Assembly (NCBI GenBank): GCA_031266175.1
Contig: JAISBN010000004.1
Coordinates: 1 to 34,069, forward strand
DNA: 34,069 nucleotides
From: Treponema sp.
GTDB taxonomy: Bacteria; Spirochaetota; Spirochaetia; Treponematales; Breznakiellaceae
Reading direction: 5' to 3'
The notes beneath the pieces were generated by a model. The model saw only the letters and a list, made by a program, of their open reading frames with translations. It did not search any database and was not told the DNA's origin. Of this stretch, positions 1 to 13,123 are shown piece after piece. Within the stretch, counting starts at the first letter, position 1. Every line of letters starts with the position of its first letter. The position numbers were made by a program, and so were the translations under genes.

Positions 1-694
1 AAACTTGAGAGGATTATAAATTTGCCGCCAAAACAACTTATTGGGGCGGGGTGTAAATATCTTGTTGTATTTGCGGAAAAAATACCCCCCCCCCCCCCCC
101 TCCCCCGAAAAAAGAAAAAAGCTTTTTACCGTACTGGTATCCCCGTCCTGGGGGACGTCCGCATTACTTTCCAGATACGGTGAACGCCTGCTTGATCCTT
201 TGATAAAAACAGGCTGGCGTATAATTGTAAGACCCCATCCACAGTCAAAACAGTCAGAAAAACCTCTGCTTGCAAAACTTCAGCAGAAATATGAAAATGT
301 TCCCACCATCGAATGGAACTACGACAGCGAAAATATTTCTGTCCTCGCAAAATCAGATATCATGATTTCAGATTTCTCGGGCATTATTTTTGACTATATT
401 GCGCTGTTTAACAAACCTGTATTATACGCAAACGAAAAAATTGATTTGCGTCCATACAATACTTTTTTTCTTAACAAAGAAGACTATTGGCCGTTACGGG
501 CTTTAAAAAAATTCGGCCTTGAACTAAAGGAGAAAAACTTTGGATTCCTGCGGGATATAATTACCCGTGCGGTAAAAGACAAAACTGCGGAAGAAGCCAG
601 GAAATGGACAAAGGATAACGCCTGGCAGCGACAGGGAGAATCCGGAAAAATCGTCACCGATTACATGATTCAGGTAAAAGGGGGATTCTTATAA
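1..694 (+). CDS. CDP-glycerol:glycerophosphotransferase (TagB/TagF-like), 5'-truncated by the window edge and frameshifted at a poly-C tract
   Basis: Frame 1 (nt 1-84) encodes KLERIINLPPKQLIGAGCKYLVVFAEKI, matching KLRNLKPKELVMAGSGYLDVYAEKI of the 11882-13123 paralog. Frame 2 after the tract (ORF 41-694) encodes LFTVLVSPSWGTSALLSRYGERLLDPLIKTGWRIIVRPHPQS...DIMISDFSGIIFDY, matching the rest of the paralog. Confidence 0.85.
85..100. repeat. C16 homopolymer tract (followed by T and C5) inside the coding region; candidate slipped-strand phase-variation tract
   Basis: Direct reading: ata-C16-T-CCCCC-gaaaaaag at 82-114. Confidence 0.9.
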
Positions 695-1167
695 TGATGA
701 AAACAATAGTAACATTTGGCGTTTTTGATTTGCTCCACCTTGGACATTTGCGGTTGTTTGCAAACATAAAGAAAAGATGCGGCATTGAAAATAAACTCAT
801 TGTGGCCGTACAGGATTCCGCTTATATTTTAAAATACAAACCCAATACCAAAATAGTCTATAGCAATGAAGAACGTTTGGAAATGATACAAAATCTTAAA
901 CCCGTTGACAACGTCATCATATATACCGATATTGATGTAACAATAAAAACCATTAATTTTGATATCTGGGCAAAAGGGCCGGATCAAATTCATTCCGGTT
1001 TTCAAAGGGCAATAGAGTGGTGTAAAAAAACCGATAAGGCTGTGATTGAAATACCAAGAACCGAAGGTATATCCTCAAGCTTATTAAAGTCCCATATTAT
1101 TGATCCTTCTCCAGGGGCTGGATATTTAAACCCGGTTTCTAATAAACAGGAAGAAAGTGATGCTTGA
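694..1167 (+). CDS. TagD-like cytidylyltransferase (glycerol-3-phosphate cytidylyltransferase family)
   Basis: Nucleotidyltransferase motif TFGVFDLLHLGHLRL and C-terminal PRTEGISSSLLKS; overlaps the upstream stop as TAATG. Confidence 0.85.
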   Translation: MMKTIVTFGVFDLLHLGHLRLFANIKKRCGIENKLIVAVQDSAYILKYKPNTKIVYSNEERLEMIQNLKPVDNVIIYTDIDVTIKTINFDIWAKGPDQIHSGFQRAIEWCKKTDKAVIEIPRTEGISSSLLKSHIIDPSPGAGYLNPVSNKQEESDA

Positions 1168-10761: not shown

Positions 10762-11885
10762 TCACGGTTTTAGTCTGCTACGAACGGATATCCCTTTATC
10801 ACACCATGGTTCCTTTTTTTCTGAAAGAAAAATCCTCCCGTAAAAAACAGGCCGGGAAAATTTTCCGCTTTACCCGGCGGGCGGACTGGTGCCTGCGGCA
10901 CGACAGAAATTCCGTTCTTTTTATGGAGCGGTGTTTTCAACACCGGGAACCCAGGGACCTGTCGCCGGATGAACTGGAAACCATGAAGCGCCTGCGGGAT
11001 AAATACAAAACCATCGTCTTCTTCTGCGGTCAGGGCGAAGCGGGAACCAACCGGCTTGATCTGCTTCCCTTTGTGGACCGGCTCTTTTATAAATCGGTTT
11101 TTACCGACCGGGGCAATTACTTAAAGGACCTGTACGGGAAAAATCTCTTTGCCGATTACTATCACCGCCGTTACGGCGTGGCCGACGATCCCGAATATTC
11201 GGGTGGGCAGCTTCTTTCCGCGGCGGAGGCCCGGCGGCCGGAACTGTCTTGGAACATAGGCCTGGGAACCTATCCCCGTCTCCACTGGCCCCAGCGGCTT
11301 GGCACCGTCCTGGCCCGGTCCGGTATGGCCGGATTGGGCCGGCGCATAGGAGGGAAACCCGCCGCGGCGGAGCCCCGGGAGCTTCCCCGGCCTCCGGATT
11401 TTTTCGGCGGCCGGCGGAGCATTGCCGTCCACGCCCGGATCGATCCGGTAAGCTGCCGCTCCATCGCGTACCAGCGAAGGCTGTTTCTGGACCTCATCGC
11501 CGGTTTCCGCCGGAAGGATCTCTTCCTTACCGGCATGGTTCCCCAGAAACAGTACTACCGGGAACTGGCCGATTCAAAGATCGCGCTGTCCCCCTTCGGC
11601 TGGGGGGAGGTGTGCTTCCGGGACTTTGAGGCGATCCTTTCCGGCGCGCTGCTCCTTAAACCGGACATGGGCCACGTTACAACCTGGCCCGATGTATATA
11701 TCCCCTATGAAACCTATATCCCCCTGGCCTGGGACGGAAGCGATCTGCTGTCCCAGGCGCAGCGGTACCTGGAAGACGAGGGAAAACGGCGCCGGATTGC
11801 CGCCAACGCTTTTGAGGTTTACCAAAAAGCGCTGGCGGAATTGCCGGACCGCTTTGATGCGCTGCTGGGAGAATTTTTTCCGTGA
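10758..11885 (+). CDS. Putative glycosyltransferase
   Basis: C-terminal YRELADSKIALSPFGWGEVCFRDFEAILSGALLLKPDMGHVTTWPDVYIPYETYIPL resembles exostosin/glycosyltransferase C-terminal signatures. Confidence 0.65.
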   Translation: MITVLVCYERISLYHTMVPFFLKEKSSRKKQAGKIFRFTRRADWCLRHDRNSVLFMERCFQHREPRDLSPDELETMKRLRDKYKTIVFFCGQGEAGTNRLDLLPFVDRLFYKSVFTDRGNYLKDLYGKNLFADYYHRRYGVADDPEYSGGQLLSAAEARRPELSWNIGLGTYPRLHWPQRLGTVLARSGMAGLGRRIGGKPAAAEPRELPRPPDFFGGRRSIAVHARIDPVSCRSIAYQRRLFLDLIAGFRRKDLFLTGMVPQKQYYRELADSKIALSPFGWGEVCFRDFEAILSGALLLKPDMGHVTTWPDVYIPYETYIPLAWDGSDLLSQAQRYLEDEGKRRRIAANAFEVYQKALAELPDRFDALLGEFFP

Positions 11886-13123
11886 GACTGCTGTACATCG
11901 ATCCCGGTACGGGCAGCATGCTTTTTTCCATTCTGATCGGGGCCTCGGCCACCCTGTACTTTCTTGCCCGGACTTTTTTCATCAAACTCAAGGTGCTCCT
12001 TTCCGGCACGACGGGAACGGGAAAGCATTTTCTCCCCTATGTCATTTACAGTGAGGGAAAACAGTATTGGAACGTTTTTAAAAACGCCGTTGATGAATTT
12101 GAAAAGCGGGAAATTCCCCTTACCTTTATGAGCTCTTCGCCGGACGATCCGGTCTTTACCGGGCAGTACAAGTTTGTTCGGGCCGAATATATCGGTGAAG
12201 GCAACAGGGCCTTTGCCCGGCTTAATTTTTTGCATGCCGGAATCCTGCTTATGACAACGCCGGGCCTTGACGTCTACCAGCTGAAACGGCGAAAAACGGT
12301 GGGCCACTATTCCCACGTACTCCACATGACCGGTGATCCCGCCGGCTACCGTCTTTTCGGCCTTGATTACTTTGATTCCGTCCTCTTAAGCGGTTCCTAC
12401 CAGGAAAAGGACATACGCTTTCTTGAAAAGCTCAGAAACCTGAAGCCCAAGGAACTGGTGATGGCGGGATCAGGCTATCTGGACGTCTACGCAGAAAAGA
12501 TACGGGAGATGAGGGGCCGGAAAGAATCCCCGGAACAGCTTACCGTCCTGGTATCGCCGTCCTGGGGAGACCAGGGAATTTTAAACCGCTACGGTGAAAG
12601 GCTCCTGGATCCCCTGACCGCTGCGGGATACCGCGTCATTGTCCGGCCCCATCCGCAGTCGGAAAAAAGCGAAGGGGCCCTGCTGAAAAAACTGGAGCGG
12701 CGTTACGCCGATACCCGGAATCTTGAGTGGGACCGTGAGCGGGAAAACATTGTTTCCCTTTCCCGGGCGGACATTATGATCTCCGATTTTTCCGGCATCA
12801 TCTTTGATTATGTCTTTCTCTGCGATAAACCGGTGCTCTACACCAGCCAGGATATGGACCTGCGGCCCTATGACGCGTCGGATCTGGATCATGAAATGTG
12901 GCAGACCACGGCGATCCGCAGCATCGGGGCAGAACTTAGGGAAGAAGATTTCCCCCGGATTGGCGAAGTGATTAACCGGGCCCTCTCCAGCGCCGCCCTG
13001 CTTCAGGCCCGGCAAAAAGCCGCCCGGGAAGCCTGGCAGTACCGGGGAGAAGCGGGAAAACGCATCGCCGATTTTATGATCAGCAAAGTACGGCAGGCGG
13101 CTGACGTGCAGGAGGGCTTTTAA
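11882..13123 (+). CDS. CDP-glycerol:glycerophosphotransferase family protein (TagB/TagF-like), full-length paralog of 1-694
   Basis: N-terminal TM segment; LTVLVSPSWGDQGILNRYGERLLDPLTAAGYRVIVRPHPQSEKSEG...DIMISDFSGIIFDYVFLCDKPVLY. Confidence 0.85.
   Translation: MRLLYIDPGTGSMLFSILIGASATLYFLARTFFIKLKVLLSGTTGTGKHFLPYVIYSEGKQYWNVFKNAVDEFEKREIPLTFMSSSPDDPVFTGQYKFVRAEYIGEGNRAFARLNFLHAGILLMTTPGLDVYQLKRRKTVGHYSHVLHMTGDPAGYRLFGLDYFDSVLLSGSYQEKDIRFLEKLRNLKPKELVMAGSGYLDVYAEKIREMRGRKESPEQLTVLVSPSWGDQGILNRYGERLLDPLTAAGYRVIVRPHPQSEKSEGALLKKLERRYADTRNLEWDRERENIVSLSRADIMISDFSGIIFDYVFLCDKPVLYTSQDMDLRPYDASDLDHEMWQTTAIRSIGAELREEDFPRIGEVINRALSSAALLQARQKAAREAWQYRGEAGKRIADFMISKVRQAADVQEGF

Follow-up and report, generated by a model that had tools for sequence, protein, structure and literature searches.

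A family of YidC-like and LtaS/EptA-type fusion proteins paired with a TagF-like transferase at a spirochaete locus for a putative phospho-substituted surface glycan

A ten-gene block with two YL systems

The stretch of Treponema sp. DNA analysed here (the window, 34,069 nucleotides) is one whole contig (G000:C77) of a 2.58-Mb genome bin that is 84% complete, and its first 13,123 positions hold a block of ten genes, two of which encode fusions of a YidC/Oxa1-like domain with an LtaS/EptA-type membrane transferase, a family that we name YL. The initial annotation had read this block as a teichoic-acid-like phosphopolymer locus in a probable spirochaete. Domain searches confirmed all ten genes at 1-13123, with very tight spacing, mostly 4-bp overlaps, and with a content far above chance (WbaP E=1e-133, YidC domains E ~1e-19 to 1e-22, PF04464 over cutoff). 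The entire ten-gene set is kept in a same-genus genome (locus L048).

The window locus holds two YL systems. The first comprises TagB1, a TagB/F-like protein whose 5′ part is lost at the contig start (1..694, open reading frame 20-694, + strand; PF04464 E=1.9e-10), a cytidylyl/adenylyltransferase-like protein of the TagD/RfaE-II group (694-1167, + strand; PF01467 E=1.4e-17) and the fusion YL_A (1157-3841, + strand; PF02096 E=1.1e-19, TIGR03592 2.5e-20). Although truncated, TagB1 matches positions 215-404 of the TagB profile (E=3.2e-78) and belongs to the TagB family that pairs with YL; its orthologue in L048 is intact and lies immediately upstream of the TagD-like gene. The second system comprises YL_B (3838-6636, - strand; PF02096 E=3.2e-19, PF00884 28.5 bits against a cutoff of 25), a glycosyltransferase of family 4 (GT4; 6633-7832, - strand; PF00534 E=1.1e-15), a membrane protein resembling cytidine diphosphate (CDP)-alcohol phosphotransferases (CDP-OH; ~7869-8552, + strand; PF01066 E=7.5e-6), GTx, a PF13524-type glycosyltransferase of the YL_B module (10758-11885, + strand; E=1.8e-8; 8 loci), and TagB2, an intact membrane-anchored TagF-like transferase (11882-13123, + strand; PF04464 E=7.8e-9). 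GT4 accompanies YL_B, CDP-OH and GTx across loci, and parts of the module, TagB2 included, recur jointly in six further loci (L040, L052, L053, L054, L055 and L119). The remaining two genes of the block encode a WbaP-type undecaprenyl-phosphate hexose-1-phosphate transferase, a glycan initiator (8549-9991, + strand; TIGR03022 E=1.1e-133), and an exported DUF6675 protein with a signal-peptide-like N-terminus (9988-10761, + strand; PF20380 E=3.1e-30).

The YL fusion, its putative catalytic site and its groove

What had been annotated as two LtaS-like fusions proved to be LtaS/EptA-type in the transferase part, whereas the N-terminal half, which is YidC/Oxa1-like, had been missed. In YL_A the YidC/Oxa1-like domain spans residues ~1-225 and is followed by about three helices (225-285), an LtaS/EptA-like region of five transmembrane helices (296-473) and an extracytoplasmic domain of the alkaline-phosphatase superfamily (485-894). 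Both window fusions exceed the PF02096 cutoff of 35 bits (71.4 and 69.9) and fall slightly under that of TIGR03592 (73.3 and 78.4 versus 84.3); PF00884 is over cutoff in YL_B and under it in YL_A, and the LtaS equivalog among the NCBIfam models matched neither. An AlphaFold2 (AF2) model of YL_A, with a predicted local distance difference test score (pLDDT) of 82.6, displays the YidC-like bundle, the extra helices, the five-helix LtaS/EptA-like region and the phosphatase-type domain. In Foldseek searches its top matches were EptA, LtaP, MCR-1, PbgA and LtaS, and its N-terminus matched Bacillus halodurans YidC2 (3wo6/3wo7, TM-score ~0.71-0.73). YL_B is 33% identical to YL_A, and YL_B proteins form a clade of their own with 100% support (FastTree).

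An assembly artefact or a chance fusion is ruled out by the alignment of 166 distinct full-length fusions from many genomes, and a role of YL as stand-in for the housekeeping YidC by the separate YidC on another contig of the same bin (G000:C40). In some loci three to five YL paralogues stand in tandem (L036, L037, L042, L045 and L046), and some copies elsewhere have frame breaks, e.g. in G069:C113. We found no description of a YidC-LtaS/sulfatase fusion, or of a link between YidC and phosphonates, in the open-access literature, which misses most subscription papers.

Residues were counted over the 166 full-length proteins in YL_A numbering. D500, T537, H706, D769 and H770 are invariant in 166/166 and are putative nucleophile and metal-ligand residues; the segment from D500 to T537 is encoded at 2654..2767 and that containing H706 and D769-H770 at 3272..3466, both on the + strand. 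YL_B keeps all five. With five membrane helices ahead of an extracytoplasmic catalytic domain, and with a Thr nucleophile and an Asp-His metal site, YL shares the layout of LtaS/LtaP and EptA/MCR/BcsG. The first metal ligand, however, is Glu in LtaS/EptA and Asp in YL, and YL further differs from these enzymes in its N-terminal YidC-like domain, its tandem paralogue arrays, its near-obligate TagB partner and its lack of a match to the LtaS equivalog.

The YidC-like part tells another story. Its fold and cytosolic hairpin are strongly conserved, and it resembles the YidC/Oxa1/Alb3 insertases in core fold and in passing the PF02096 cutoff. The register of the hydrophilic groove, which we set by a gap-free alignment to B. 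halodurans YidC2 and by same-lineage housekeeping YidCs, places the basic position at S44 of YL_A (codon 1286..1288, + strand). Of the YL proteins, 163 have Ser, Thr or Asn there (Asn in YL_B), 3 have Gln or Tyr and 0/166 have a basic residue, whereas 8/8 of the housekeeping YidCs have Lys or Arg. YL thus departs from the insertases in having no groove Arg/Lys, in just missing TIGR03592, in carrying a fused transferase and in being additional to a housekeeping YidC. A fold that is kept while the insertase-associated charge is lost is the strongest sign that the role of this domain may have changed.

The TagB partner, unfused versions and distribution

TagB proteins (~410 aa) carry a single N-terminal helix anchor and RPHP and SDFSG...D motifs, and an N-terminal YIDPGTGS motif is invariant in 24 aligned proteins. 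The AF2 model of TagB2 (pLDDT 88.9) has TagF as its best Foldseek match (3l7j, E=3e-12), and the TagB profile also hits Cps3D (8qoy), a capsule polymerase of TagF-like type. Among NCBIfam models no TarF/TarL equivalog reached cutoff for the TagB1 fragment, and TagB2 had no match. TagB is therefore like TagF/TarL and Cps3D in fold, in PF04464 and in the two motifs, and unlike TagF/TarL in its YIDPGTGS N-terminal helix, its length, its 13-15% identity to TagF and its tie to YL.

This tie makes TagB a near-obligate partner of YL. In 298 Spirochaetota genomes both were found in 66, YL only in 3, TagB only in 2 and neither in 227 (Fisher p ~8e-60, a value that ignores phylogeny), and the five genomes with just one of them are mostly incomplete bins. 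The two genes switch jointly inside genera g60 and g64; in g60, for example, both are present in G169, G316 and G324 and both are missing from G181 and G277. Of 300 sampled Bacillota genomes, the same two contain YL and TagB. In YL-centred loci, 74/80 TagB genes lie ≤3.5 kb from a YL gene of the same strand, and 62 directly adjoin it; these loci were fetched with YL as bait, which biases adjacency, and the genome-level table is free of that bias.

The fused parts also occur apart. Two loci, L160 (genome G243) and L161 (G333), encode in this order a separate YidC-like protein, TagB and a protein resembling LtaS (with a PF00884 match in L160 only, the L161 protein being similar by inspection), and in a third (L163, G280) TagB is accompanied by a YidC-like protein that is likewise unfused. 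By inspection, the groove residues of these three YidC-like proteins are Asn, Asn and Gln, none basic. The unfused sets indicate that the YidC-like, TagB and LtaS-like proteins are best read as components of a single three-part module, with YL a fusion of the first and the last.

If these are parts of one module, what does the YidC-like part do in it? It could act as a specialised chaperone or insertase that serves the transferase domain, the TagB N-terminal helix or a small partner, with the transferase using phosphatidylglycerol or phosphatidylethanolamine like LtaS/EptA and TagB building the polymer in the cytoplasm. The conserved fold and hairpin would fit such a function, the invariant TagB YIDPGTGS/transmembrane segment could be the client, and LtaS and EptA work without a flippase domain. 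We nevertheless consider this unlikely: the basic groove residue is missing throughout YL, the genome already has a normal YidC, pairing holds where TagB is without the YIDPGTGS segment (L163), and it would be odd for a client-specific insertase to be joined to one among several clients in hundreds of proteins. More doubtful still is that the domain serves as a membrane anchor or docking platform for TagB with no transport role. This would explain both the lost groove charge and the tight pairing, but the transferase has a five-helix membrane domain of its own, and the groove position retains a polar residue (S/T/N) instead of drifting freely.

The neighbours of YL and TagB share a common theme, namely a nucleotide-activated head group whose chemistry varies while TagB and YL stay constant. 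A nucleotidyltransferase or a phosphoenolpyruvate (PEP) mutase is present in 55/95 YL loci of at least 10 kb; PEP mutase occurs in 18, a HisC-like aminotransferase (often LicC-like fused) in 17 and GmhA in 14. The unfused sets of L160 and L161 adjoin a PEP mutase (Ppm) with a cytidylyltransferase domain and a phosphonopyruvate decarboxylase (Ppd), and L160 also encodes a fusion of a PntC-like nucleotidyltransferase with a class V aminotransferase. The module thus resembles the Pnt clusters in that its fused and unfused versions stand beside Ppm, Ppd and PntC-like genes. Phosphonate tailoring of surfaces, including that by Treponema denticola PntC, is known up to the cytidine monophosphate-activated aminoethylphosphonate (CMP-AEP), with the subsequent steps called 'enigmatic' (PMC6697681). 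The text of that paper mentions no YidC or YidC-like protein, TagB, LtaS-like protein, sulfatase or glycerophosphotransferase, and the window locus differs from the Pnt clusters in being without PEP mutase.

Two further observations concern these neighbourhoods. In L060, L157 and L159, genes of 656-663 aa adjoining YL/TagB combine a LicC-like nucleotidyltransferase and a HisC-like aminotransferase in one fusion protein, a candidate maker of a CDP-amino-alcohol. Two families of ~550-670 aa with signal-peptide-like starts adjoin WbaP or YL in 13-14 Treponema loci (e.g. L050:14989-16884 and L159:1951-3636); a Pfam search of both gave no match, and they are probably outer-membrane polysaccharide proteins without a named family.

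Outside the block, the remaining window genes include MurC, KsgA, FlgF and FlgG. A tRNA-Gly lies 3′ of the block (13169-13240, - strand), and RNA folding of the gap at 13124-13275 gave the tRNA region and nothing else. The two flagellar genes agree with the spirochaete identity suggested at the outset, as does the result for LpxC, which had no match in the 84%-complete bin G000 and none among the matches listed for genomes of its order, whereas the same search detected it in 111/298 Spirochaetota. With no LpxC found, a lipopolysaccharide (LPS)/O-antigen locus is not favoured, although WbaP is common to O-antigen systems.

YL was found in 69/298 Spirochaetota genomes, of which three (G243, G280 and G333) were counted on their YidC-like part only, and was not found in one 1.1-Mb Spirochaetota genome. 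Several YL genes occur together with LpxC in G249, G229 and other genomes of family f24, which we take to be Brachyspira-like. Since the module coexists with LpxC and is also present in a few Bacillota, it is not simply a replacement for LPS. In Bacillota YL is rare, though the isolate Schwartzia succinivorans DSM 10502 carries it, and the sequences nest among those of spirochaetes (FastTree only, midpoint root), which suggests that Bacillota acquired YL from spirochaetes; given this nesting and a frequency of the module of 69/298 in Spirochaetota as against ~1/299 in the Bacillota sampled, a Firmicute origin of the module is not favoured. The YL of a contig labelled Tannerella (L108) nests among termite-gut Treponema sequences, and this label probably reflects mistaken binning of the public entry.

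A proposed surface glycan and a possible route to it

What could such a locus make? Of the remaining enzymes, the protein annotated as a TagD-like cytidylyltransferase does belong to the PF01467 family, but it fell far short of the TagD equivalog TIGR01518 (g3p_cytidyltrns; 45.3 bits against a cutoff of 165.4) and scored higher with rfaE_dom_II, the heptose-1-phosphate adenylyltransferase model (56.5 bits); it is a candidate activator of a phospho-alcohol or a sugar phosphate. CDP-OH passes PF01066 (26.9 bits, cutoff 22) and reads DxxDGxxAR...GxxxDxxxG, the final Asp of ...GxxxDxxxD being Gly in 7/7 orthologues (alignment A3) while the other motif residues are kept. With the TagD model failed and this Asp lost, neither protein backs ordinary CDP-glycerol or phosphatidyl-alcohol chemistry, and canonical TagD, LtaS and CDP-alcohol transferase identities are ruled out by model cutoffs and motif. 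WbaP, on the other hand, exceeds its TIGR03022 cutoff (446.8 versus 403 bits), and an initiator of this type points to an undecaprenyl-linked glycan and not to a diacylglycerol-anchored chain. The DUF6675 gene lies directly downstream of WbaP in the window, an order that recurs elsewhere, and it directly adjoins WbaP in L036, L038, L050, L053, L059 and L065; its product is likely an export or assembly partner.

These results bear on a polymer like lipoteichoic acid (LTA), in which the TagD-like enzyme would make CDP-glycerol, TagB/F would polymerise glycerol phosphate, CDP-OH and GT4 would build a glycolipid anchor and the LtaS-like enzymes would extend the chain. The TagF-like fold, the cytidine triphosphate-transferase family, the presence of LtaS/LtaP among the best structural matches, the conserved GT4/CDP-OH/GTx/YL_B module and the failure to find LpxC in the bin all speak for it. 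We judge it improbable even so, considering that the TagD equivalog failed with RfaE-II scoring higher, that there is no LtaS equivalog, that CDP-OH has lost its final Asp and that WbaP points to an undecaprenyl carrier; moreover, the TagD-like gene is missing from most related loci, where phosphonate, amino-alcohol or heptose activation is found instead. The earlier interpretation is therefore partly supported: the logic of a phospho-substituted surface polymer in an LPS-less spirochaete holds, and that of a classical LTA or teichoic-acid locus does not. A literature search for Treponema glycolipid structures yielded nothing usable for this locus.

Our tentative proposal, held at a little short of an even call, is that the product of the locus is an undecaprenyl-linked surface glycan, initiated by WbaP, that carries or in part consists of phospho-alcohol-type groups, these being added by a dedicated module of TagB and YL. 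The steps from loading by TagB onwards, the substrates and the polymer are what we infer; architecture, residues, groove loss, pairing and unfused sets were computed. A nucleotidyltransferase would first make the nucleotide-activated head group, a step for which the window has the TagD/RfaE-II-like gene and other loci have PEP mutase with PntC-type enzymes, LicC-HisC-like fusions or guanosine diphosphate-heptose enzymes. TagB, at the cytosolic face, would then move the head group to a lipid or a lipid-linked glycan. The YidC-like domain, its basic groove residue lost, may pass this lipid-linked intermediate across the membrane as a scramblase or flippase. At the outer face, the LtaS/EptA-type domain would finally use its conserved Thr nucleophile and its metal site to transfer the phospho-group to the glycan. 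Lipid scrambling in vitro has been measured for purified E. coli YidC (PMC10491306), a result that renders the crossing of the membrane by way of YL plausible without proving it. It is possible, and we put it with somewhat more reserve, that in YL an Oxa1/YidC fold, stripped of its insertase charge, serves as the scramblase by which a surface phospho- or phosphono-glycan pathway crosses the membrane, joined in one protein with the outer-face transferase and accompanied by a TagF-like loader; such a module would supply the steps after CMP-activation in phosphonate and phospho-alcohol tailoring.

Several points weigh against this proposal. We know of no biochemistry for any YL or for any TagB of the YL-pairing family. 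The YL_A model is uncertain near T537 (pLDDT <50 at residues 537-539), the co-occurrence counts carry no phylogenetic correction, the three unfused genomes were scored YL-positive through the YidC-like part alone, and the window locus has no PEP mutase. TagB could load the glycan directly in the cytoplasm, with YL then using phosphatidylglycerol or phosphatidylethanolamine. Finally, the E. coli YidC whose scrambling was assayed still had its basic residue.

A known parallel for linking head-group chemistry with the passage of a lipid through the membrane is MprF, which joins a lipid synthase and a flippase in one protein, though its domains are unrelated to those of YL, its reaction sides come in the opposite order and its chemistry is another. 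To our knowledge, how LtaS/EptA-type enzymes are supplied with lipid-linked or phospholipid donors at the outer face is in general not understood. The YL/TagB module makes this question, and that of the tailoring after CMP-AEP, directly testable. Should the flipping role be true, the Oxa1 superfamily would gain a job other than protein insertion, in line with lipid-scrambling insertases (PMC10491306). Taken together, the module suggests a previously undescribed route by which phosphate or phosphonate groups are placed onto cell-surface sugars, and it offers a way into the poorly known surface polymers of gut spirochaetes that have no LPS.

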